Origin: a virus
Direction: 5' to 3' (one strand)
Length of the DNA stretch: 27,937 bases
IMG/VR virus record: IMGVR_UViG_3300007344_000176
Span: 1 to 27,937 of that record
Part shown: piece by piece, positions 3,777 through 27,937 of the stretch
Position numbering within the stretch: position 1 is the stretch's first letter
How the letters are laid out: every line of letters starts with the position of its first letter
Made by a program: the position numbers and the translations under genes
The notes under the pieces: model-generated
The model's database searches: none
Told to the model about the DNA's origin: nothing
What the model saw: only the letters and a program-made list of their open reading frames with translations

Positions 3777-4118
3777 ATGTCACAATTAGATAAAATAGTA
3801 TTTGGTAAGAAAAAATTTTCAAGTCTTCTTGAAGAGATTTATAACAACCAAAAGAAAAAAGAAAACCAAATTTCTGCCCTTATCTCAGAATTAAAACCCC
3901 TTATTTCAGATATAGGGGACGCAACCCTTATAGTACCCCTTATAAAAGAATATATGGATATTGGGGTTAAAAATGATGATTTACTTATTAAAATGGCCAC
4001 CTTAGTTCAACGTGCCCTACAAGCAGAAGCATCAGGGGATGATTCATTTGGTATTTCTGATGAGGAAAAAGAACAACTTCTTGCCGAAATTAATAAAATC
4101 CACGATAAGAAAAAATAA
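3777..4118 (+). CDS. Conserved helical protein of the baseplate cluster (113 aa)
   Basis: This charged, all-helical protein of 113 residues contains YNNQKKKENQISALISELK (about 22-40) and a distinctive block DATLIVPLIKEYMDIGVKND (about 48-67), ending in a Lys-rich tail. No membrane segment or enzyme motif is seen. I recall similar proteins next to baseplate genes in marine T4-like phages but no assigned function; a baseplate assembly factor or minor component is plausible. It is the first gene after a candidate late promoter and overlaps the spike gene by TAATG, which couples the two. Confidence 0.75.
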   Translation: MSQLDKIVFGKKKFSSLLEEIYNNQKKKENQISALISELKPLISDIGDATLIVPLIKEYMDIGVKNDDLLIKMATLVQRALQAEASGDDSFGISDEEKEQLLAEINKIHDKKK

Positions 4119-5338
4119 TGGACGTTAGGTATGGTCTTTCTGGTTTAGGTTCTTCAATTCTTTCCCCCGGTGATGTTGGGGGTGGGGGAACTAATTCTAG
4201 CCAAATCTCAGCTGTAAGAGTTGTTGATATTGTTTTAGACGATTCCCATGAGAAATTTGAAGAAGTAGGTGGTTGGAATGGTTTAGGTACTATTTTTTAT
4301 TTATCTACAACAGATCCTACATTTGAGGATTTAACAGAACAAAAAGCAAAACCAGCCTTATCGAATTCAAAGCAATTTCCTCTAATAAACGAAATTGTAT
4401 ATGTGTTTTCTCTCCCTACCCCAGAAAATCAAAATGGTGGTAATGCCCAAGATCAATATTATTTCCATACTGTAAATGTTTGGAATAGCCCCCACCACAA
4501 TGCTCTACCCAATGCTTTAACTTTAAGTGAAAATCAAAAAGCAGATTACCAACAAACCGAAGCAGGTGCTGTTAGAAGAGTAACAGATGGTAGTACAGAA
4601 ATTAATCTTGGAGAAACTTTCCAAGAAAAATCTAACATTAACCCTCTTTTACCTTTTGAAGGGGATGTAATTCATGAAGGTAGATGGGGGAATAGTATTA
4701 GATTTGGTTCTACTGTTAAAGGATTTACAAATTGGTCCGAAGCTGGGGAGAATGGTGATCCTATTATAATTATAAGAAATGGTGAAGACCCAAACAATGG
4801 GGAAAGTGGGTGGATTCCTGTAGTAGAAAATATTAATGATGATTTATCCTCTATTTGGATGTCTTCTACTCAACAACTTCCCCTTAATGCTTCAAGTATA
4901 AATTACAACTCATACAATTCACCCCCAGATACTCCAAATCAATATGAAGGTGAACAAATTATTCTAAATTCAGGACGTTTAGTATTTAATACTAAAACGG
5001 ACCATATAATGTTTTCATCAGCTACATCGGTATCACTGAATGCTGTAGATAGCGTAAATATAGACACTAAAGAACACGTAATAGGCGCAAGTTCTATATT
5101 ACTAGGTAGCAAAGATGCTACTGAATCTTTAATGTTAGGAGATAAAACAGTTGATCTTTTAGATAAAATTTTAACTGAAATGATTTCGGTAATGACTAAA
5201 TTATCTTCTTTAGTTTCTTTACCCCCGGGGGCTCCATTTGCTCCTTTGAATGCTCAAGCAATTGCATCTCAAACATTACTTAATTCATATAAAGCTCAAT
5301 TAAGAACTTTACTTTCTAAACAAAATAAAACAATCTAA
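4118..5338 (+). CDS. Baseplate central spike protein, gp5-like without lysozyme domain
   Basis: The 406-residue protein has three parts. Residues about 30-125 look like the OB-fold platform of gp5/VgrG-type spikes, with a glycine-rich leader. Residues about 175-235 contain the block EGDVIHEGRWGNSIRFGST, which I recognise from T4-like spike proteins. Residues about 275-345 (IILNSGRLVFNTKTDHIMFS and following) show the alternating short-strand pattern of a trimeric beta-helix needle. The C-terminus (345-405) is helical. It would form the membrane-piercing spike at the centre of the baseplate. T4 gp5 (575 aa) also carries a lysozyme domain; none is visible here and the protein is correspondingly shorter. 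Confidence 0.72.
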   Translation: MDVRYGLSGLGSSILSPGDVGGGGTNSSQISAVRVVDIVLDDSHEKFEEVGGWNGLGTIFYLSTTDPTFEDLTEQKAKPALSNSKQFPLINEIVYVFSLPTPENQNGGNAQDQYYFHTVNVWNSPHHNALPNALTLSENQKADYQQTEAGAVRRVTDGSTEINLGETFQEKSNINPLLPFEGDVIHEGRWGNSIRFGSTVKGFTNWSEAGENGDPIIIIRNGEDPNNGESGWIPVVENINDDLSSIWMSSTQQLPLNASSINYNSYNSPPDTPNQYEGEQIILNSGRLVFNTKTDHIMFSSATSVSLNAVDSVNIDTKEHVIGASSILLGSKDATESLMLGDKTVDLLDKILTEMISVMTKLSSLVSLPPGAPFAPLNAQAIASQTLLNSYKAQLRTLLSKQNKTI

Positions 5339-6729
5339 TGGCAGGGTTCGGAGGTATAGTAGGGTCTATGGTTAAAAATGCCACCAAAAGTGCAGTTAAA
5401 TTTGAATTGGCTATTGATCCTTTAATAGCACAATTGCAAAAATCTTGCCCTCCAAGAGCTGAAATAGATAAAATATTAGCTCAAAAGAATCAACTTGAAC
5501 AAGCATTAACCCAAATACAATCATCCTTAGATTCATTAACAGGAACTGGGAATAAGGTAAATAGAGTATTATCCACAGTAGATACTTCAATATCTGTCAT
5601 CAAAGCTTTACCTGTTCCTACCTCAGTTCCTCCAGGGGTTGGTATTCCCTTAAACATTATAACAACTTTATCTGATACTTTAGATACTCTTGGTATTATA
5701 GTTAAAGAAGGTAAGGGTGTAATTTCTCAAGTTGCACCTTCAACTCAAATTATTACTGATATAATTTCAAAGGTTCAATCTAAATTAGCCCAATTAGAGG
5801 GTTTAATAGTTGGGTGTTTAGAAGCTGAAACCGAAGGGATGAGTGATGACGAAAAAGAAGCATATTTTTCAAGTTTAGGTATAGATTTAACATCTAAGGA
5901 TGCTAGTAATAGTGGAGCTAATAGTTTAAATGGTAACGATACTATACAAAATGAGACTTTAGAAGATAGATTAAGCCCAAATTCACCCAACCCTGTAGTA
6001 TATAAAGGTTTTACTCTTACAATTGATAGTGATGCTGGGAATAAATTTTCATTTCCTAGTAGGAGGGCAGTTGGGGTAAATGAAGAGGGTGTAAAAATAA
6101 AAACTCCTTTTTCCTTTAGCTCTTCAACTCAAGTATTATTAGATACTGTAAAATGGGAAATTGATAAACTCGATAAACTAGAATTACAAAGACTTTCAGA
6201 AGAAGCAGCCCTTAAAGCTATTGAAGATGCACGAAGGGAAGAATTAGCTAAAATTCAGCAAAGAAAGCAAATAGCAACTGAAGAAGGTAAAACAGCATTT
6301 AAGGCTGGTAAAAAAATAACAGATAATCCTTTCTTAAGGGTTGATACTTATTTGAGAATTTTTTGGGAAAATGGGTGGAATGAAGCTAAAAGAGTATCTT
6401 CTTTAGTTAAAGAATCACCTAGATCTAATTCTAATCTATCATTTACAAAACCAACACCCTCATATTCACCATTTAATGGCCCGGGTTCAAATGGTGAAAT
6501 AAGAATAAAAAGTGGAAAATTCTATAGATATTTGGCACAATCCAAAAAATGGGTTAATCATACACCATCCCCAGCCCCCTTCCAAGTATTAGGAAATGCT
6601 AATGGTGAGCAAAAAACTCTTGAACGTTTTCAAAATGTTGGTGGTTTTAATACCCGAATTGTGGATACCTACCTATGGAATAGTACATTATATAAATGGG
6701 AACTAAAATCCACAAAAGTCTATAATTAA
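5338..6729 (+). CDS. Baseplate-cluster structural protein (463 aa), function unknown
   Basis: Residues 1-165 are helical and hydrophobic in patches, with coiled-coil stretches (about 41-70) and a proline-rich turn (91-105). Residues 222-280 form a conserved-looking beta block (YKGFTLTIDSD, SRRAVGVNEEGVKI, SSSTQVLLDTVKWEIDKLDK) that I recall from other large T4-like phages but cannot name. A coiled coil follows (about 275-315). The last 80 residues (KSGKFYRYLAQSKKWVNHTP) look like a small separate beta domain, perhaps a surface binder. The gene lies between spike and gp25 in a TAATG-coupled run, so it is probably a hub or wedge component of the virion. A tail-tube connector or tape-measure-like role cannot be excluded. 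Confidence 0.65.
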   Translation: MAGFGGIVGSMVKNATKSAVKFELAIDPLIAQLQKSCPPRAEIDKILAQKNQLEQALTQIQSSLDSLTGTGNKVNRVLSTVDTSISVIKALPVPTSVPPGVGIPLNIITTLSDTLDTLGIIVKEGKGVISQVAPSTQIITDIISKVQSKLAQLEGLIVGCLEAETEGMSDDEKEAYFSSLGIDLTSKDASNSGANSLNGNDTIQNETLEDRLSPNSPNPVVYKGFTLTIDSDAGNKFSFPSRRAVGVNEEGVKIKTPFSFSSSTQVLLDTVKWEIDKLDKLELQRLSEEAALKAIEDARREELAKIQQRKQIATEEGKTAFKAGKKITDNPFLRVDTYLRIFWENGWNEAKRVSSLVKESPRSNSNLSFTKPTPSYSPFNGPGSNGEIRIKSGKFYRYLAQSKKWVNHTPSPAPFQVLGNANGEQKTLERFQNVGGFNTRIVDTYLWNSTLYKWELKSTKVYN

Positions 6730-6755: not shown

Positions 6756-7094
6756 ATGAAATCTACGGAATTAAAAAAGATGATTAAGGATGCTGTAAAA
6801 GAAGCAATCCAAGAAGAATTAAAAGATATTCTTTTAGAAGCCGTTCGTTCTCCTAAGTCAATGGTATCTGAAAATATTTCAATGCCAACTCCACAACTTT
6901 CATCCCAACCCCCTTCATTAAACGCAGCTGAGAAAAAAGCAGCTTACATGAATATTTTGGGAGAAACAGGAACCTTTACTGCAAAAGATGCAGCAACGTT
7001 TAACCCATCAGGACCAATTGATCCTGCTAATGGTACTTTACCTCCAGGGGAATTAGGGATGGATCAAATTATGGGTCTTTTAAATAGCAAATAA
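6756..7094 (+). CDS. Small baseplate-cluster protein (112 aa)
   Basis: The N-terminal 30 residues form a charged amphipathic helix (ELKKMIKDAVKEAIQEELK), the middle is Ser/Pro-rich and probably disordered, and the C-terminal half has the pattern EKKAAYMNILGETGTFTAKD followed by Gly/Pro loops. There is no enzyme motif. It is co-expressed with gp25 and gp6 behind a candidate late promoter and overlaps gp25 by TAATG, so a minor baseplate or chaperone role is likely. Near the end of the helix, LLE (26-28) followed by Ala fits the prohead-protease pattern seen in the right-hand block, but placement in the tail cluster argues against head packaging. Confidence 0.68.
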   Translation: MKSTELKKMIKDAVKEAIQEELKDILLEAVRSPKSMVSENISMPTPQLSSQPPSLNAAEKKAAYMNILGETGTFTAKDAATFNPSGPIDPANGTLPPGELGMDQIMGLLNSK

Positions 7095-20316: not shown

Positions 20317-20766
20317 ATGAAATGGACATATAAAAACCAATTAATGGAGAGTATTTCTGACTTTCCTGATACTACCTATGGCTTTGTTTATATGATAACG
20401 CATATGCCAACTGGTAAATCTTATATTGGTAAAAAAATACTACAAAATACAACAAAAGTAAAATTAGGAAAAAAAGAATTAGCCCAATATTCAGGTGTTG
20501 TAGGACGTAGACCTGCTTACAAATTAGCAGTTAAAGAATCTAATTGGAAAACTTATTGGGGTTCTAATAAACATATGAAAGAATTATATGAAACAGAACC
20601 TAAAGAAAATTTTGAACGTACTATTTTAGTTTGTGCTCCCACTAAAAAGTTATTAACTTATTATGAGGTAAAATATCAAATGATCTACCAAGTTTTAGAA
20701 AAACCAGAAGAATTCTATAATGATAACATTCTTGGAAAGTTTTTTACACGTGACTTTGATGTGTAA
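20317..20766 (+). CDS. GIY-YIG family endonuclease
   Basis: The 149-residue protein carries the GIY-YIG signature: YGFVYMI (21-27, the GIY strand), SYIGKK (35-40, the YIG strand) and the catalytic Glu in YYEVKYQ (E117). The block WKTYWGSNKHMKELYE (77-92) is typical of the phage branch of this family. The family cuts one DNA strand using a metal held by the Glu. It is little more than the catalytic domain: no obvious DNA-binding tail like those of many homing endonucleases. It could be a free-standing homing enzyme or a resident enzyme in replication, repair or host-DNA breakdown. It lies exactly between the fibre genes and the primase. Confidence 0.82.
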   Translation: MKWTYKNQLMESISDFPDTTYGFVYMITHMPTGKSYIGKKILQNTTKVKLGKKELAQYSGVVGRRPAYKLAVKESNWKTYWGSNKHMKELYETEPKENFERTILVCAPTKKLLTYYEVKYQMIYQVLEKPEEFYNDNILGKFFTRDFDV

Positions 20767-20792
20767 ATTTTAGTTCATATATTAACGGTTAT

Positions 20793-21719
20793 ATGATAAA
20801 TGAATTACTTGTTAATTTAGTTAACTCTGTTTTAGGTCCTGGTAAAAGGACAGCTAGGGGCAACCAAGCCCATAACTGCCCATTTTGCCACCACCATAAA
20901 CCTAAATTAGAAATTAACTTTACTGAAAATAAAAAAGGGCATAACCCTTGGCACTGTTGGGCTTGTGATAAACGAGGCAAAACGGTGTACACTTTATTTA
21001 AACAAGTAGAAGCCACCCCCGAACAATTCTCAGAATTAAATCAATTAGTTAAAACTAATAATGTTGTTGAAGATGTTAAGATTGTTAATACTTTAGAATT
21101 GCCTAAAGAATTTAAATCTATAGTGGATAATAACGATATTATTGCACGTCACGCCAAAGCGTATTTGCATTCGCGAAACATTGGTATAGACGATATTATA
21201 AAGTATAATATGGGGTATTGCGACAGTGGTCGGTATGCTAAAATGGTTATTATTCCTTCATATGATGCTAACGGGAAATTAAATTATTTTACAGGTCGTT
21301 CATTTGAAAAAGACCCATATGTAAAGTATCGTAATCCTGAAGTATCTAGAGATATTATTCCATTTGAACTTTTCATCAATTTTGATTCACCTTTAGTATT
21401 ATGTGAAGGACCGTTTGATGCTATTGCTATTAAGAGAAATGCTATACCTTTATTAGGTAAAAACATTCAAGACAGTTTAATGAAAAAAATCGTCACATCT
21501 ACAGTTAAAAAAATTTATATCGCTTTAGATACTGACGCCATGAAGCAGGCACTTAAGTTTGCTGAATATTTTATGAATCAAGGTAAAGAGGTCTATTTGT
21601 TAGAGCTTGAAGGGAAAGACCCGAGTGATATGGGATTTGCTCATTTCACTAAACTAATCCAAAATACGTTTCCTCTTGATCAATATGGATTGATGGAGAA
21701 GAAACTACAATTACTATGA
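20793..21719 (+). CDS. gp61: DNA primase, gp61-like
   Basis: The 308-residue protein (T4 gp61 is 342 aa) has an N-terminal zinc-binding motif (C29, C32 in CPFCHHHK; C55, C58 in WHCWACDKRGK) and a Toprim core: E205 in LVLCEGPFDAIAIKR, the D246/D248 pair in IYIALDTDAMKQA, and a final acidic patch in GKDPSDMG (D276, D279). Primases of this type make short RNA primers for lagging-strand synthesis together with the gp41-like helicase. The zinc domain helps choose the priming site and the Toprim acids bind magnesium. The start at ATG 20793 leaves a short linker before the first Cys pair. Its stop overlaps the next nuclease gene by ATGA. Confidence 0.92.
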   Translation: MINELLVNLVNSVLGPGKRTARGNQAHNCPFCHHHKPKLEINFTENKKGHNPWHCWACDKRGKTVYTLFKQVEATPEQFSELNQLVKTNNVVEDVKIVNTLELPKEFKSIVDNNDIIARHAKAYLHSRNIGIDDIIKYNMGYCDSGRYAKMVIIPSYDANGKLNYFTGRSFEKDPYVKYRNPEVSRDIIPFELFINFDSPLVLCEGPFDAIAIKRNAIPLLGKNIQDSLMKKIVTSTVKKIYIALDTDAMKQALKFAEYFMNQGKEVYLLELEGKDPSDMGFAHFTKLIQNTFPLDQYGLMEKKLQLL

Positions 21720-22495
21720 GTAAAAGAAACATTAAGCAATCTTACAACCGAATCCTAGAGATTTCAGATGATGCTAAACAAATTACAATGCCAGATTCTC
21801 GCTATTATAGACGAAATAGCAAATATTATCCCTCGGTTACGTATGTTCTTTCATATTACCCAAAAGGTAAATATTTTGAAGACTGGCTTAAAAAGGTAGG
21901 ATATTCTTCTGAACATATTGTTCGTAAAGCAGGAGAAGAAGGTACCCAAGTACACGAAATGATTGAAGATTACCTAAATGGTAAAGAATTAAATTTCCTA
22001 AATTCTCTTGGAAACCCAGCATATAGCCCCGATGTATGGCAAATGTTCCTGCGTTTTGTTGATTTTTGGGAAACTCATAATCCTAAATTAATCGAAACCG
22101 AAGTACACTTATTTTCAGATAAACTTAAAGTAGCAGGTACTTGTGATATGGTTTGTGAAATTGATGGTGAACTTTGGATTATTGATTTTAAAACCTCTAA
22201 TAACCTCCAGACAACCTATGACTTACAGGCAGCTGTTTATGGTAAATGTTATGAAGAATGTTTTGGAAAAACCCCAGATCGTTATGGTATCTTATGGTTA
22301 AAATCTAAATCTAGAGGAGAAGATAAAAGTGGTAAGCGGTTAAAAGGTAAAAATTGGGAAATGTATGAATCAACTCGCAGCCAAGAAGAAAATATTGATA
22401 TTTTTCTTACGGTAAAAAAATTGTTTGATTTAGAAAACCCAAAACACTCACCAATCTTCACTGAATTTAGAACGCAAGTAAAAAGAAAATTGTAA
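21716..22495 (+). CDS. PD-(D/E)XK nuclease, Cas4/RecB-like exonuclease
   Basis: The 259-residue protein shows the RecB/Cas4-type nuclease motifs in order: GEEGTQVHEMIEDYL (H80), GTCDMVCEIDG (D144), LWIIDFKTSNN (D157, K159) and the helix YDLQAAVYGKCYEE (Q171). These residues bind metal and cut DNA. There is no cysteine cluster of the kind that binds an iron-sulphur centre in Cas4, so it is closer to the simpler phage exonuclease group. It is coupled to the primase (ATGA), which suggests a role in recombination-dependent replication, DNA-end processing or degradation of host DNA. Substrate and polarity are not readable from sequence. Confidence 0.85.
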   Translation: MSKRNIKQSYNRILEISDDAKQITMPDSRYYRRNSKYYPSVTYVLSYYPKGKYFEDWLKKVGYSSEHIVRKAGEEGTQVHEMIEDYLNGKELNFLNSLGNPAYSPDVWQMFLRFVDFWETHNPKLIETEVHLFSDKLKVAGTCDMVCEIDGELWIIDFKTSNNLQTTYDLQAAVYGKCYEECFGKTPDRYGILWLKSKSRGEDKSGKRLKGKNWEMYESTRSQEENIDIFLTVKKLFDLENPKHSPIFTEFRTQVKRKL

Positions 22496-22519: not shown

Positions 22520-23320
22520 ATGATTTCTTTGGTACAACTCTTAAATGAGGCGGAAAATTCGCCTAAAGCTGTTATTCTTGCTGGTGCCCCAGGTGCTGGT
22601 AAATCATCAATCGTGGGGGATATTATCTCTGGTTTAGGTTTAAAAGTATTAAACATTGATGATCATTTTATTAAAAACCTAAAAGATGCAGGTGTTTCTT
22701 TAGACCTTAAAAAAGGAGGTCCTGAAGAAAGAAGTAAAGCAGCTATTGCTATGCAAGCAGCCCAAAAATCATATTCATCAGAATTAGAACAAGAAATCAA
22801 AAAACGCGGAAATATTGTAATTGATGGGACTGCTGCTTCATATAAAAAAACAGAACAGCTAAAAGAAACCTTAGAAAATGCAGGTTATAAAGTATTAATG
22901 GTTTATGTCTATTCTTCATTAGAGAAATCATTGCGCAAAAACGAAGATAGATTTGAACGTTCAAAAGGTGAAGATAGAAGTTTAATGCCTTTCATTGTAA
23001 TGCAAACATGGGCAGGGGTTACTAAAAATTTCCTCCCATATCTTGAATTATTTGGTAAAAATTTTATAGCAACTACTAAAGATAAAAACTTAGTTGATGC
23101 TGATTCTTTAGAAGATATTATTAAAAAATATATTGAGCCCTATGCTCCTAAAGACACCAAACCTAAAACCCCAGCTCAACAAGCAAGTTCCGACAAACGG
23201 AAAGCTAAAATGGAACAAGATATTAAAGATTTAATGTCTAAAGAAAAAGTTGGACAGCATATTAAACACATTGTTTCAACTGAAGAAGCCCAATCTAAAT
23301 TAAAGTCATTTTTAGGATGA
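22520..23320 (+). CDS. P-loop kinase, zeta-toxin/polynucleotide-kinase-like, with candidate packaging leader
   Basis: Residues 22-30 are a Walker A loop (GAPGAGKSS). LNIDDHF (45-50) carries the acidic residues placed as in zeta-toxin and related kinases, NIVIDGTAAS (98-106) fits the next strand, and LRKNEDRFERSKGEDR (138-153) is an Arg-rich lid that would hold phosphates. Zeta-type enzymes phosphorylate UDP-sugars, while related kinases act on nucleic-acid ends; the sequence does not settle which. The first residues (MISLVQLLNE then AENS) form a short hydrophobic leader ending in Leu-Asn-Glu, like leaders in the next genes. The C-terminal 60 residues are charged and helical. It overlaps the fusion gene by ATGA. 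Confidence 0.78.
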   Translation: MISLVQLLNEAENSPKAVILAGAPGAGKSSIVGDIISGLGLKVLNIDDHFIKNLKDAGVSLDLKKGGPEERSKAAIAMQAAQKSYSSELEQEIKKRGNIVIDGTAASYKKTEQLKETLENAGYKVLMVYVYSSLEKSLRKNEDRFERSKGEDRSLMPFIVMQTWAGVTKNFLPYLELFGKNFIATTKDKNLVDADSLEDIIKKYIEPYAPKDTKPKTPAQQASSDKRKAKMEQDIKDLMSKEKVGQHIKHIVSTEEAQSKLKSFLG

Positions 23321-25812
23321 ACGAACTAACAAAGTTTTTAGTAAACTCCATATTAAATGAAGATGAAGATGCTATGGGTACTGTAGCTTTATTTGGGGGA
23401 GGGTTTAAACCTCCAACTAAAGGTCACCTTGATGTAGTTTTACAAGGATTAAAAGAATATCCTGAAATAAAACAAGTTTATATTCTTGTAGGTAGTGGCG
23501 TTAGAAATAATATATCTCAAGAAGAATCAGTTAAAATATGGGAAATGTACCAACAATTCATCCCAGTTGCTTCTCAAATTATCCCTGTTAGTTCTCCTTT
23601 TACTTGGATTAAAACTTATTTAACAGATCATAAAGATGAAAAAGTCTACATTTTTATAGGTGCACGTCCCGGAAATGTAGAAGATGAAAAAGATGTAACC
23701 CAAAGACAGGCATTTGCAAAAAAATATAGTGATAAAGTACTTCCTGTTAAAATCCAAACAGGTGGGGGGATTAGTGGAACAAAAGCTAGAGCTGCCGCTA
23801 AAGTATCTAAAGAAGAATTTTTTAAATATATCCCCTCAAAATTATCAAATTCAGAAAAAGAACAAATTTTTAGTTACATTCAATCTGTTGTAACTGAAAA
23901 AGTTGAGGAAGATGGTGAAACTATTACATGCGATAACTGTGGGTGGAGTTGGGGGTATGCTGAAGGAGGAGATAATTTTAATGTTTGCCATAAATGTGGT
24001 CATGATAATTCTCCTGGAAGCTACGTTAACCTTACAGAAGATCTTTCATTTGAAAAGAAACGAGCACTAGTAAAGAAAATTATTACACTTGCTCGTAAAA
24101 AAGGAGATTTTGTTTCATTAGATAAATTAGCAGATATTATTGCTAAACAAATTGAAGTTAATTCACCTCGCTTATCCCCAGGTGAATTTAAAGTAGTTAA
24201 AGAAAATGCTACATATTCCAGTAGTATTGATATAATGGAAAAATGTGCTCAATTAACTAACTATATGAAAGAGTTAGGTATGCCGATTGAACCATTCCCT
24301 GCTGTAGAGTTTATAGATGGTGATACTGAAAACGCAAAAGATTTCTTTGGTAAAACAGCGTATTATGATCCAAATGAACAAAAAATTGTCCTCTATACTG
24401 AAGGACGTCATCCAAAAGATATAGTTCGTTCGTTTGCTCACGAGATGATTCATCATATGCAAAACCTTGAGGATCGTTTGGGTAATATTACAACTACAAA
24501 CACTCAAGAAGACGATAAACTAAATGATCTAGAAGCTGAAGCCAATTTAAAAGGAACAATGACATTCAGAAATTGGACTGATAGTTTACAGGAAAAGAAA
24601 AAAGTAAAAGACCCATTTGGTTTAAATCAATATGCCCGTGAATTAGCTCAAGGTTTAGAAGAAACATTCATAAACGAAGGTGTATATGATTCTATCGTAT
24701 CTAAATTGTCTAAAGATGTTTTAAACGCATGGAAAAAACAATTCGACAATGACCCAAAACGTTTATTTGCTTTAGTTGATACAAACTATGAACTTGAAGA
24801 TGCTAAAGGTCGTCCTTTAGAATTTGACCTTTTAGCTAAACTTGATTTCAAGAAAACTAAAGATAGAACATATAAAGTAGACGGAGGCGCAAACGAAGGT
24901 GATGATGAAAGTGAAGGATTCATAGCACTTAATTTCTCAGTAGATCCTAGAGAATTACCTAGAATGTGGTCTACAATTGCTATGGATATTCGTGATGTAT
25001 TACGCCACGAAATTGAACATTTAACTCAAGGGGGTTGGAATGTCCGTCAAGGTAAAGAAATGGCTGATGATTCATTTATTAGAGATTTAATTAATAAATA
25101 CAAAACATTAGCCCCTAAAAACTACTTCATGTTAGATAAAGAAGTAGACGCTATGCTTCAGGGTATGTATTTTAAAGCTAAAAAGGCAAGAAGACCATTT
25201 GCTGACGTAATCGAGGATTATCTTGATATGGTAGGTTTAGAACCTGAAGAAAAAGAAGAAATTAAAACTCGTTGGAGGGGCAGATTAAAAGCCTTATCTT
25301 TACCATTATTTGAACAAGAAAATATGGAAAAAGAATACAAAATTTATCTTGACATGGACGGGGTAATTGTAGATTTTGATAAAAGATTTGAAGATTTAGC
25401 AGGTATGGGTCCTCGTGAATACGAAGATTCCTTTGGAAAAGAAAAATTTTGGGATTTTATTGATTCAAAAGAAAAAGGTGGTGGTGTAGGTTTTTGGGTT
25501 GGTATGCCTTGGATGCCTGGTGGTAAAGCTTTATACAATAGAGTAGCTCAACACAACCATGCTTTGCTTTCATCTCCATCTAGATCAGAATCTTCTAAAA
25601 TTGGAAAACGTTTATGGAGAAAAAAATTCACCCCATCTACAAAATTAATTTTAGCTCAATCATTCAATAAGAAAAACTACGCAGATAAAGATAGCATCTT
25701 AATTGATGATAGAGAATCCAACATTCAGCAATGGAGAGAAGCAGGTGGCATAGGTATACTATATAAATCAGCAGACCAAGTAAACAAAGAATTAGATAAA
25801 TTAGGTTTATAA
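23317..25812 (+). CDS. Multidomain fusion: NMN adenylyltransferase-like, zinc ribbon, two metallopeptidase-like domains, HAD phosphatase
   Basis: This 831-residue protein is a string of enzymes. Residues 1-15 are a leader ending LNE. About 22-190 is an NMN/nicotinate-nucleotide adenylyltransferase-like Rossmann domain (FGGGFKPPTKGHLD with the TKGH signature, 34-37; GISGTKAR, 151-158), a family that makes NAD from ATP and NMN. C205/C208/C224/C227 form a zinc ribbon. About 290-425 contains HPKDIVRSFAHEMIHH with HEMIH at 375-379 and an acidic partner in LEAEAN. About 455-660 contains a second zinc motif, RHEIEHLTQGG (564-568), with likely third ligand E609. About 670-831 is a HAD phosphatase (D679, D681 in LDMDGVIVDFD; LIDDRESN, D797/D798), like deoxynucleotidases. 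An internal ATG at 25324 could express the last domain alone. Confidence 0.8.
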   Translation: MNELTKFLVNSILNEDEDAMGTVALFGGGFKPPTKGHLDVVLQGLKEYPEIKQVYILVGSGVRNNISQEESVKIWEMYQQFIPVASQIIPVSSPFTWIKTYLTDHKDEKVYIFIGARPGNVEDEKDVTQRQAFAKKYSDKVLPVKIQTGGGISGTKARAAAKVSKEEFFKYIPSKLSNSEKEQIFSYIQSVVTEKVEEDGETITCDNCGWSWGYAEGGDNFNVCHKCGHDNSPGSYVNLTEDLSFEKKRALVKKIITLARKKGDFVSLDKLADIIAKQIEVNSPRLSPGEFKVVKENATYSSSIDIMEKCAQLTNYMKELGMPIEPFPAVEFIDGDTENAKDFFGKTAYYDPNEQKIVLYTEGRHPKDIVRSFAHEMIHHMQNLEDRLGNITTTNTQEDDKLNDLEAEANLKGTMTFRNWTDSLQEKKKVKDPFGLNQYARELAQGLEETFINEGVYDSIVSKLSKDVLNAWKKQFDNDPKRLFALVDTNYELEDAKGRPLEFDLLAKLDFKKTKDRTYKVDGGANEGDDESEGFIALNFSVDPRELPRMWSTIAMDIRDVLRHEIEHLTQGGWNVRQGKEMADDSFIRDLINKYKTLAPKNYFMLDKEVDAMLQGMYFKAKKARRPFADVIEDYLDMVGLEPEEKEEIKTRWRGRLKALSLPLFEQENMEKEYKIYLDMDGVIVDFDKRFEDLAGMGPREYEDSFGKEKFWDFIDSKEKGGGVGFWVGMPWMPGGKALYNRVAQHNHALLSSPSRSESSKIGKRLWRKKFTPSTKLILAQSFNKKNYADKDSILIDDRESNIQQWREAGGIGILYKSADQVNKELDKLGL

Positions 25813-26372
25813 TGTTAAAGAAAGAATTTAAAGAAAAAGACGTTGAACGTATCCGTAACCTTGTTAAAGGTAAAGGTAGCGAACGTACTATTTCTGGGGT
25901 AGGTTTTGCTAAAAAACACCAATTCCATGAAGAGGGAGATATTTGGGAGGAAGATGGTCGTCATTGGACTATTAAAGATGGTTTAAAACAGAATATTACA
26001 AAGCTAGATAAAGCAAAGCAAATAAATAAAATGCCTATGTTTTGTCCTTCATGTAGCAAATTGATGCATAAAAATAGAGATGAAAAACTTTACCCAATTC
26101 ATGGTAAATGTCTCAATTGTGTTATTGATATGGAACATGAATTGCATAAGCAAGGATTATTTGAAGATTATAAAAAAAATATTGTTAATGCAGACATTGA
26201 TGGTCTTATAGAAATGTATAAGAACTGGATGTTTGATCAAATTAATGAAGAAAACAATTCGTTTCTTACTGAAAAAGGTGATAAGGAAAAGTGGGTTGGA
26301 AAGGTTGATAAGGAAAGGGCTATGAAAGCAATGAAAGAAACTATTAACTATTTACAATCACTAAAAAAATAA
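25812..26372 (+). CDS. Zinc-ribbon protein of unknown function (186 aa)
   Basis: The N-terminal half holds a conserved-looking block (KDVERIRNLVKGKG, then GVGFAKKH, EGDIWEEDGRHWTIKDG; about residues 9-57) that I recall from T4-like marine phages without a known role. A four-Cys zinc ribbon follows (C78, C81 in MFCPSCSK; C100, C103 in GKCLNCV). The C-terminal half is helical and charged. It could bind nucleic acid or a protein partner; no catalytic residues are evident. It starts within the stop of the fusion gene (TAATG), so its translation depends on that gene's. Confidence 0.72.
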   Translation: MLKKEFKEKDVERIRNLVKGKGSERTISGVGFAKKHQFHEEGDIWEEDGRHWTIKDGLKQNITKLDKAKQINKMPMFCPSCSKLMHKNRDEKLYPIHGKCLNCVIDMEHELHKQGLFEDYKKNIVNADIDGLIEMYKNWMFDQINEENNSFLTEKGDKEKWVGKVDKERAMKAMKETINYLQSLKK

Positions 26373-26373
26373 G

Positions 26374-26985
26374 ATGGAACCTTTAATGATGTTGACGACA
26401 ATTGCAGTTGCCTTAATTACGGCAGTTTTTGGGCCTATAGCAGTTGCTTGGGCAAAAAAACAATTTGAAAATACCCCCTCCAAAAACCCGGTATGTGAGG
26501 CTATAGAATTAAATAGTCTAGTTGATGAACAATTAGATATAATGATGGGTGAACTCGAGGCTAGTAGAGTATGGGTATCCCAATTCCACAATGGGGGCCA
26601 TTTTTACCCCACAGGAAAATCCATTCAGAAATTTTCTATTTTCTATGAAAAGACATCCCCAGATGCTATGTCTATTCAAAATGTGTTTCAAAATGTTCCT
26701 GTATCTTTATTTCCAAAAGCATTAGCTCAACTTTACAAACAAGGCGAACTAGCTATCCCCACATATGAAGGAGAAGATTACGATTTAACATCAGTATCTC
26801 GCCCATATAATACAAAATCATTTTATATGATTGCATTAGATGATTTACATGGTAAATTTATTGGTGTGATGGCTATAGCTTTTGATCAAGAATATACATT
26901 AACCAAAGAAGATTGGATATTTATACGTCAGAAGGCGGGTGTTATTGGTACTCTGCTTGACGAATACTTAAATGCAAAAAAATAA
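26374..26985 (+). CDS. Membrane-anchored GAF-like sensor-domain protein
   Basis: Residues 4-27 are a hydrophobic anchor followed by KKQ, which places the rest in the cytoplasm. Residues about 45-200 fit a GAF-like fold: helix LVDEQLDIMMGELEASR, strand VWVSQFHNGG (66-75), strand KFSIFYEK, then FYMIALDDLHGKFIGVMAIAF and a final helix. GAF domains bind small ligands such as cyclic nucleotides or haem; ligand residues cannot be assigned here. No kinase, cyclase or output domain is attached, so it is a bare sensor or scavenger at the membrane. The fold assignment is by pattern only. It begins two bases after the previous stop and overlaps the next gene by TAATG. Confidence 0.65.
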   Translation: MEPLMMLTTIAVALITAVFGPIAVAWAKKQFENTPSKNPVCEAIELNSLVDEQLDIMMGELEASRVWVSQFHNGGHFYPTGKSIQKFSIFYEKTSPDAMSIQNVFQNVPVSLFPKALAQLYKQGELAIPTYEGEDYDLTSVSRPYNTKSFYMIALDDLHGKFIGVMAIAFDQEYTLTKEDWIFIRQKAGVIGTLLDEYLNAKK

Positions 26986-27182
26986 TGAAATTTAAACCTT
27001 CCCCTTTCCAAAACTCCCTTAGCAAGATGTCTCCCCAAGCACCTTATATTACTGATGGTGCTTCAACCCCTGTGGTTCAAAAGAAACCACAAGCATCTAA
27101 ATTTGAAGAGTTTACCCCAACACCCGAGGAAGATATCAAACCAACCCCTAAACGGACTACTAAAAAGAAAACAGATGAGTGA
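26985..27182 (+). CDS. Small basic Pro/Lys-rich protein (65 aa)
   Basis: The 65-residue product is low-complexity and probably disordered: Ser/Pro-rich at the start (MKFKPSPFQNSLSKMSPQ), then a Pro/Thr/Glu stretch and a strongly basic end (KPTPKRTTKKKTDE). Small basic disordered proteins in phages often bind nucleic acid, but nothing specific shows that here. It overlaps the previous gene by one base (TAATG) and the next gene by eight bases (27175-27182). These overlaps support it as a real gene despite its composition. Confidence 0.6.
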   Translation: MKFKPSPFQNSLSKMSPQAPYITDGASTPVVQKKPQASKFEEFTPTPEEDIKPTPKRTTKKKTDE

Positions 27183-27699
27183 TTTTAATTTACACAAATG
27201 GTTTAAAAACCAATACCTTCAGGAAAATGATGACCCTAAAATTGGTTCAGAACTTGAAGCTGGATTATTTGGTACTGGAGTAGCTGAATCAGAAGCTTCA
27301 AATAACCTTGTTCCTCTTATTTTAAATGCTATTGATCAAGTAGATGAAACTTTACATTATGGAGATTTTGCTAAAGCTATAGCTACTATTCTTAAAGACG
27401 AATATGGCTCTCATAATTTTGGAAAATTTATGGAAGTACTCCATGCTGAATTAGGTATAGAAGAGTCTTTAAATGAAAATGAAGATTTATCATCATTAGA
27501 TAAATTTCTAAAATACTTTAAATCATATGATGCTTATGTTGAATATATAGATGATGGTGGTCAATATAGAAGAGCAAAAGAAAACAATAATGCTATTTTA
27601 GGTATGTATAATGCTTTATCTCCTGAAGATAAAAAAACAGCTTTTAAAGCAGTTCAAGACCATACTAAAGACGAAAGAACAATCAACGCATTTAAATAA
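27175..27699 (+). CDS. Hypothetical protein with candidate packaging leader (174 aa)
   Basis: The frame is open from an ATG at 27055, but the start is placed at ATG 27175. The 40 upstream residues are an out-of-frame reading of the 65-residue gene, and from 27175 the protein begins MSDFNLHKWFKNQYLQE then NDD: an amphipathic leader ending Leu-Gln-Glu like those of nearby genes. The body has two helical domains: about 45-95 (LVPLILNAIDQVDETLHYGD, then FAKAIATILKDEYG) and about 105-174, which is charged. No catalytic motif is visible and I do not recognise a family. It ends in a TAATG overlap with the last gene. Confidence 0.68.
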   Translation: MSDFNLHKWFKNQYLQENDDPKIGSELEAGLFGTGVAESEASNNLVPLILNAIDQVDETLHYGDFAKAIATILKDEYGSHNFGKFMEVLHAELGIEESLNENEDLSSLDKFLKYFKSYDAYVEYIDDGGQYRRAKENNNAILGMYNALSPEDKKTAFKAVQDHTKDERTINAFK

Positions 27700-27937
27700 T
27701 GGAAGATATTAAAAAAATACAAGAATTCTTTTCTAAATCCTTAAACGAGGAAAAAGAACCATTAGATATTATAGATCTTGCTAAAGTAGTAAAAGTAGTA
27801 CAACAAACAGGACATCCTGTAACTGTACTACTTGTTCCTAAATTTAACGAAATCGAAGTCATCACAGGTATGGATGCCCCTGATGATATGCTTCGTGATC
27901 TTTCTAATGCAGTTGATAGTTTAGGGTATGGTCGTAA
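27699..27937 (+). CDS. Hypothetical protein with candidate packaging leader, cut by the window edge
   Basis: The open frame starts at ATG 27699 inside the previous stop (TAATG) and runs off the right edge after 79 codons. It begins MEDIKKIQEFFSKSLNE followed by EKEPLDIIDL, again an amphipathic helix ending Leu-Asn-Glu. The visible body (VVKVVQQTGHPVTVLLVPKF, then NEIEVITGMDAP) looks like the start of a small alpha/beta fold. The family is not recognised, and the missing C-terminus prevents more. Confidence 0.65.
   Translation, partial: MEDIKKIQEFFSKSLNEEKEPLDIIDLAKVVKVVQQTGHPVTVLLVPKFNEIEVITGMDAPDDMLRDLSNAVDSLGYGR

Follow-up and report, generated by a model that had tools for sequence, protein, structure and literature searches.

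Interchangeable N-terminal leaders ending in L-x-E, probable capsid-targeting propeptides, on enzymes of T4-like phages related to Flavobacterium phage immuto

The sequence analysed here, referred to throughout as the window, is the whole of IMG/VR record IMGVR_UViG_3300007344_000176, a 27,937-base fragment of a T4-like myophage genome in which four genes near the end of the record encode proteins that start with a short leader stopping at (L/I)-x-E. Comparison of sequences from related phages shows leaders of this kind to be portable between proteins, with the boundary at L-x-E. We consider it probable that they are capsid-targeting propeptides, that a prohead protease of the gp21 type cuts after (L/I)-x-E and also processes a polyprotein in this way, and that the cargo is likely delivered together with the DNA.

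Results

Leaders in the window and their conservation

The open reading frames (ORFs) and N-termini of the genes at 22520, 23317, 27175 and 27699 are exactly as a preliminary description of this DNA had written them. The leaders are 10, 15, 17 and 17 residues long and each ends in (L/I)-x-E (Table 1), which fits the 10–19 residues of a capsid-targeting sequence (CTS) of the T4 type. The start at 27175 is an ATG within a longer mechanical ORF that begins at 27055, and it overlaps the end of the 26985 ORF; the gene at 27699 comprises just 79 codons and runs off the end of the record. The genes at 25812, 26374 and 26985, which lie within the range that the preliminary description covered, have no such leader.

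When the kinase of the window is aligned with those of 24 other IMG/VR loci, all 25 proteins have L at residue 4, L or I at residues 7 and 8, and E at residue 10, with positions 9 and 11–14 variable. According to a review of T4 (PMC9026906), the residues of the IPIII CTS that matter are 4 and 7 for targeting and 8 and 10 for processing, so that the kinase leader, which is the only leader class in this alignment, is conserved at the T4 CTS positions. The review adds that Asp at position 10 of the IPIII CTS inhibits processing although targeting still takes place. An N-terminal [LI]xE is found in 92 of 94 comparable kinases, in 26 of 35 homologues of the nicotinamide mononucleotide adenylyltransferase (NMNAT) type (31 of 35 if V, M or F is allowed), in 5 of 6 homologues of the 27175 protein and in 3 of 3 of the 27699 protein. 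The counts in control families are 3/29 for the 26374 protein, 6/133 for the primase and 28/118 for SegE. Family alignment and counting also addressed the possibility, raised in the preliminary description, that the leaders vary and homologues lack L-x-E, and do not bear it out.

Portability of the leaders

Seven leader classes were defined by expression among 3,617 proteins, and six of the seven take part in swaps, with 392 pairs in which the same body carries leaders of different classes (six class combinations). One leader type also occurs on unrelated proteins, as with the NFDL type on 46 body clusters, a rough number because single-linkage clusters chain together. L-x-E counts within the MISL class hold by construction since the class expression includes L-x-E. 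In the window's own kinase family, MISL-type and NFDL-type leaders precede bodies that are 91–92% identical (L032/L087 and L009/L121), and bodies related to that of the 27175 gene carry other leaders in L046 and L119. In these kinases the distance from the last L-x-E to a conserved PKAI is 4 residues for 53 of 57 leaders of the MISL class and for 4 of 4 of the NFDL class; such a fixed spacing across leader classes is expected if the mature enzyme begins after L-x-E.

Genome layout and concentration of leaders in the cargo and head zones

Up to about 20.3 kb the window holds baseplate and tail genes; beyond them come a SegE-like GIY-YIG gene, the primase and exonuclease genes, and then the leader genes. 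Relatives were collected through protein searches; in a megablast comparison with named phages the first 25,000 bases had a single match, of 268 bases, to records of Flavobacterium phage immuto, which is the nearest named relative found (the 831-residue protein is 35% identical over 98%). Immuto and eight further genomes (9/9) share the gene order SegE, primase, exonuclease, variable zone, terminase, portal, gp21 protease, scaffold and major capsid protein, and the window terminates within the variable zone between exonuclease and terminase, hereafter the cargo zone, whose content differs between genomes. Of the 21 relatives' records, 17, among them that of immuto, have peptidase S77 (gp21) and 16 have gp23; no gp21-type prohead protease is present in the 27.9-kb window fragment. 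In immuto the gp21 homologue is gp201; cuts after L-x-E are predicted there for gp179, gp184, gp187, gp194 and gp195, and after an internal VMAE site for gp183. The gp21-like protease and scaffold, which the preliminary description had proposed to look for elsewhere in the genome, were located in the relatives (the scaffold by synteny, 9/9). One gp21 match (G020:10531–10992, L186) has a single in-frame TAA, from a sequence error or a broken copy.

Enrichment was measured in nine genomes as [LI]xE with E at residues 8–22 of non-redundant proteins, against 500 shuffles, after exclusion of 5'-cut genes and of proteins shorter than 60 amino acids (aa), or 70 aa for the comparison of N-terminal pairs; genes were called with a simple caller of our own, some of whose starts may be wrong. 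The motif occurs in 49 of 93 cargo-zone proteins (shuffle mean 22.7, standard deviation 3.7, reached by 0/500) and in 11 of 14 proteins of the portal–capsid zone (shuffle mean 2.6, reached by 0/500). Elsewhere in the genomes it occurs in 95 of 495 (shuffle mean 81.8, standard deviation 7.8, reached by 33/500). It is clear that the leaders exceed chance and that the enrichment is limited to the head and cargo zones, and the search across the relatives' proteins that the preliminary description proposed also finds them shared by unrelated bodies. In the same phages L-x-E is also found near the N-termini of the scaffold, protease and capsid proteins, the gp21 homologue in the nine relatives having it as L-T-E and the capsid protein at early sites.

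Among alike N-terminal 20-mers on non-homologous bodies (score at least 38) there are 162 cargo–cargo pairs, vs. 4 pairs with an offset of 30 and none with an offset of 50; the 121 pairs from the rest of the genomes include lipoprotein-like signal peptides and leader genes beyond the cargo zone. In one relative (G001) six consecutive ORFs at 61961–64979 all start with MDNF(D/N)L(K/R)KYLAEG(K/R)L.

The 831-residue protein

From its sequence and predicted structure the protein encoded from 23317 looks like a polyprotein with L-x-E-type sites between enzyme domains, a reading that we adopt because of junction conservation and predicted linkers; these further sites between its domains were missed by the preliminary description. 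The chain holds two enzyme folds and two HExxH motifs, and no polyvalent-type family was matched in Pfam or PHROGs. The Foldseek and VIA matches listed all come from its two end domains, with aa 195–671 scarcely covered; phmmer against PDB returned nothing for the kinase or the 831-residue protein, and Pfam gave few matches across the cargo bodies.

Nine [LI]xE sites end at residues 15, 47, 76, 241, 308, 426, 449, 454 and 666. An AlphaFold2 model built from 28 sequences has a mean predicted local distance difference test (pLDDT) of 78.7 and a predicted template modelling score (pTM) of 0.32, with pLDDT below 50 at segments 13–18, 192–201, 233–243, 262–301, 426–454 and 667–670. Six of the nine sites lie at most one residue from these low-confidence segments (binomial 3.5e-4; Fisher vs. 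other glutamates 0.006), and without the one-residue margin five of nine lie within them (binomial 0.0021).

Conservation across homologues points in the same direction. In 43 distinct copies in which the nucleotidase domain is fused, [LIVMF]xE lies 3–11 residues upstream in every one, against an expectation of 5.8 drawn from other windows in these proteins; the strict [LI]xE is there in 36 of 43 (3.9 expected), and after removal of similar junctions the counts are 23/23 and 17/23 respectively. Free nucleotidase copies have an L-x-E-type site upstream in their own N-terminus in 41 of 43 cases. At the FINE/G-type junction ahead of GVYD, counted unconditionally rather than by selection on the motif, [LIVMF]xE followed by G is found in 35/35 distinct internal copies; two homologues start there N-terminally without a site, and 1 of 41 is not aligned that far.

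Virion evidence from cyanophages

The published virion mass spectrometry reports a cytidylyltransferase or NMNAT in the cyanophages S-CREM2 (PMC10665884), S-SZBM1 (PMC9146016), S-SCSM1 (PMC9602691) and S-SM1 (PMC3037559). Read from the genomes, the N-termini are T4-style: MKNFSSFLTE/A in S-CREM2, MRFRQFIIE/A in S-SZBM1 and MKSFLQFLKE/A in S-SCSM1. The nucleotidylyltransferase domain of the window matches phrog_395 with E 2.3e-5, and three cyanophage members match it with E 2.4e-59, 6.1e-90 and 1.2e-104. Further virion-detected S-CREM2 proteins have like starts, namely a kinase (VKRFDAFLTE/E), a SAM hydrolase (MKDFDSFLEE/F), gp13 (MKDLHSFLTE/Q) and gp136 (MQTFSMFFSE/D). The Cas9-like gp12 of S-CREM2 (L266:7704–10313), also virion-detected, has FASFMAE/A near residue 25 and is perhaps a packaged nuclease.

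We matched 49 of the 52 virion-detected S-CREM2 proteins to our own gene calls and put 33 of them in a tail group on the basis of their annotation or their position in the tail cluster. Among non-tail proteins the motif occurs in 9 of 16 detected vs. 24 of 171 undetected (Fisher 2.8e-4), with p ranging from 0.00022 to 0.0043 over four motif settings; it occurs in 3 of the 33 tail-group detected proteins. The authors of the S-CREM2 and S-SCSM1 papers leave co-purification open, and the main texts of both papers do not contain the words targeting, leader, N-terminal or propeptide.

Table 1. Features of the window that bear on the leaders, their cargo and the neighbouring control genes (rmsd, root-mean-square deviation; a slash or "then" marks the predicted or candidate cut).
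Feature	Coordinates	Strand	Evidence
Kinase leader MISLVQLLNE (then A)	22520..22549	+	Predicted cut after E10; L4, [LI]7, [LI]8, E10 in 25/25; leader swaps in family
Kinase body, P-loop, Zeta_toxin/AAA family, including stop codon	22550..23320	+	Pfam PF06414 E 2.3e-15, above cut-off
Leader of 831-aa protein, MNELTKFLVNSILNE (then D)	23317..23361	+	Predicted cut after E15; AlphaFold pLDDT <50 at residues 13–18
Nucleotidylyltransferase domain (PPAT/NMNAT fold), aa 20–194	23374..23898	+	6b7b_A Z 16.9, rmsd 2.6, 153 aligned; phrog_395 E 2.3e-5
Candidate internal site NLTE then D (aa 239–241)	24031..24039	+	Within low-confidence segment 233–243
HEMIH (aa 375–379), first HExxH, candidate zincin metallopeptidase	24439..24453	+	Invariant with immuto gp183; family from motif only
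Linker with candidate sites SLQE/K (426), GLEE/T (449), FINE/G (454)	24586..24678	+	Low-confidence segment 426–454
HEIEH (aa 564–568), second HExxH, candidate metallopeptidase	25006..25020	+	Motif only
Candidate site LFE then Q (aa 664–666), ahead of nucleotidase	25306..25314	+	43/43 fused copies with [LIVMF]xE 3–11 aa upstream of domain
5'(3')-deoxyribonucleotidase domain, aa 672–831	25330..25809	+	3bwv_A Z 15.3, rmsd 2.2, 137 aligned; phrog_2643 E 6.7e-25
Leader MSDFNLHKWFKNQYLQE (then N) of 27175–27699 gene	27175..27225	+	Same leader type on immuto gp202
Leader MEDIKKIQEFFSKSLNE (then E) of gene truncated by record end	27699..27749	+	Same leader type in L152, L046, L047
Leaderless neighbour, negative control family	25812..26372	+	[LI]xE in 0/124 homologues; 36/124 with V/M/F allowed
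SegE-like gene, primase, exonuclease	20317..22495	+	Synteny markers directly upstream of cargo zone; order kept in 9/9 relatives' genomes

Other observations

A 112-aa protein in the baseplate cluster of the window (6756–7094) begins MKSTELKKMIKDAVKEAIQEELKDILLEA and resembles the KSEL leader class, with similar starts in three relatives (G001, G004, G012); it is either a misplaced head protein or carries a helix with another role. Six small consecutive ORFs in L227 (G012, 4062–5670) have KSEL-type starts and differing bodies, and lie beyond the main cargo zone. PHROGs and the immuto record give the gene at 20317–20766 and immuto gp171 the name "NAD synthetase", probably a name error carried over, because the gene matches Pfam SegE GIY-YIG with E 1.1e-26. 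A tRNA-Ser (TGA) gene occupies 38–123, and the ORF at 44–214 that overlaps it is probably spurious.

Discussion

Relation to known systems

The T4 review (PMC9026906) describes cleavage by gp21 after L/I-X-E and propeptides of 10–19 residues on the internal proteins (IPs), and suggests that the CTS may allow T4-like phages to package various proteins. IPII and IPIII of T4 start MKTYQEFIAEA, gp24 MAKINELLRES and gp22 MLKEQLIAEA. The present system resembles this one in having a short (L/I)-x-E-ended leader common to different proteins and, in the relatives, a gp21-type protease, and the gp24 start (MAKINELLRE/S) closely resembles that of the window kinase (MISLVQLLNE/A). It differs in having several leader classes, none of them close to MKTYQEFIAEA, many such genes per genome, cargo that includes large enzymes and a multi-enzyme chain, and Bacteroidota hosts (Flavobacterium sp. 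LMO8 for immuto). The cyanophage enzymes of S-CREM2, S-SZBM1 and S-SCSM1 share the related nucleotidylyltransferase family phrog_395 and leaders ending in L-x-E; their leaders are of the T4 type (MKxFxxFLxE) on single enzymes detected by mass spectrometry, whereas the protein of the window is a chain.

Polyvalent proteins of phages and conjugative elements likewise combine several enzyme domains and HExxH motifs in one chain, with packaging and injection proposed (PMC5512222), but here the domain borders are marked by an L-x-E-type site, and cutting would fall to a separate prohead protease. Ejection proteins of phiKZ and SPN3US are also packaged in the head and trimmed after glutamate by a gp21-related protease (PMC9026906), although these phages belong to another lineage and have other propeptides. 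Among the matches listed from the open-licence literature there is targeting work on T4, P1 and SPN3US and none that concerns leaders of this kind in phages of Bacteroidota or polyproteins with L-x-E sites, which is no proof of absence. It is likely that the logic is that of T4 capsid targeting and that the new elements are the families of leaders, the many enzyme cargos and a polyprotein likely processed in the capsid.

Proposed mechanism and alternatives

By analogy with T4, an N-terminal helix of about 10–25 residues would dock the enzyme in the prohead core during head assembly. The gp21-type protease would then cut after (L/I)-x-E and free the mature enzyme inside the capsid, as its specificity, the conservation of the site and the leader swaps suggest. 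For the 831-residue protein, junction conservation and predicted linkers suggest that a single leader may load several enzymes, which are separated afterward. The likely purpose, from the example of the T4 IPs and Alt, would be delivery into the host together with the DNA. We infer head targeting and trimming from gp21 and gp23 in relatives, synteny, zone enrichment, leader swaps, the CTS positions and the cyanophage virions, and it is in this indirect sense that these two claims of the preliminary description are supported.

Several observations weigh against this mechanism. The exonuclease (21716–22495) has R-I-L-E-I conserved at residues 12–16 and [LI]xE in 116 of 130 homologues; as judged from the sequence, the segment probably belongs to the protein body rather than to a leader. 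L-x-E alone is therefore not diagnostic, and we rejected the motif by itself as a classifier in view of this family and a background of about 20%. Together with the KSEL-like N-terminus at 6756, the exonuclease indicates that the motif or helix can occur in proteins without a known link to the head. A leader is missing from some NMNAT homologues, L-x-E from the homologue in HTVC008M and the strict motif from 44 of 93 cargo-zone proteins, and sites 47, 76 and 308 of the 831-residue protein fall inside folded parts of the model. In S-CREM2, 7 of the 16 detected non-tail proteins are without the motif, and with the tail group included the link is weak (12/49 vs. 24/171, p 0.067). We found no virion proteomics for the phages studied here in the literature, and therefore neither packaging nor cutting has been observed.

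Different roles for the leaders or the junctions must also be considered. It is unlikely, though worth some weight, that the 831-residue chain, in a way that would resemble polyvalent proteins, is cut by the two metallopeptidase-like domains that it contains or is left uncut, and that its L-x-E junctions are not gp21 sites. The chain does contain two HExxH motifs, and self-processing has been proposed for the metallopeptidases of polyvalent proteins (PMC5512222), but the same site stands upstream of the free nucleotidase with its own leader (41/43), where the chain has no metallopeptidase, and the junction sites match the leader motif. A slightly smaller chance attaches to leaders that dock and mature head proteins, the proteins aiding head assembly or filling the core instead of being injected as effectors. 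That scaffold, protease and capsid proteins in these phages also have L-x-E near the N-terminus would agree with such a role, as would the head-assembly defects of T4 IPIII mutants (PMC9026906); kinase, nucleotidylyltransferase and nucleotidase domains are nevertheless unlikely scaffolds, and the variation of the cargo zone between genomes argues, indirectly, in the same sense.

Sorting to a membrane, a replication compartment or another complex seems very improbable: amphipathic N-terminal helices are able to bind membranes or partners, and the baseplate cluster has a protein with a KSEL-like N-terminus, but the conserved L-x-E boundary, the placement by head genes and the detection in cyanophage virions all speak for the head. 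We attach the least probability, close to none, to ordinary N-termini that carry a short motif by chance. About one in five proteins in the rest of the genomes do have it (95/495), yet 0 of 500 shuffles reach the counts of the cargo or head zone, the families conserve it vs. 0/124 in the neighbour control, and leaders are swapped.

Significance

Beyond the mechanism itself, we lean toward the broader view that T4-like phages of marine Bacteroidota have a general delivery system, in which interchangeable leaders fill the head with many enzymes that are unrelated and change fast, and some polyproteins (adenylyltransferase, two metallopeptidase-like domains and deoxyribonucleotidase) are cut by the prohead protease inside the capsid before injection. 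If this is true, the first 10–25 residues of a phage protein would be of help in deciding if the head carries it, and many hypothetical proteins of marine phages could be sorted by sequence into likely injected effectors. It would also offer a reason for the repeated detection of nucleotidylyltransferases and kinases in cyanophage virions, where co-purification was an alternative that the authors could not set apart, and capsid maturation would gain a polyprotein step. Finally, enzymes of NAD or nucleotide metabolism or of counter-defence, for instance, would become candidates for action on the host ahead of phage transcription, and the leaders would supply a list of them.

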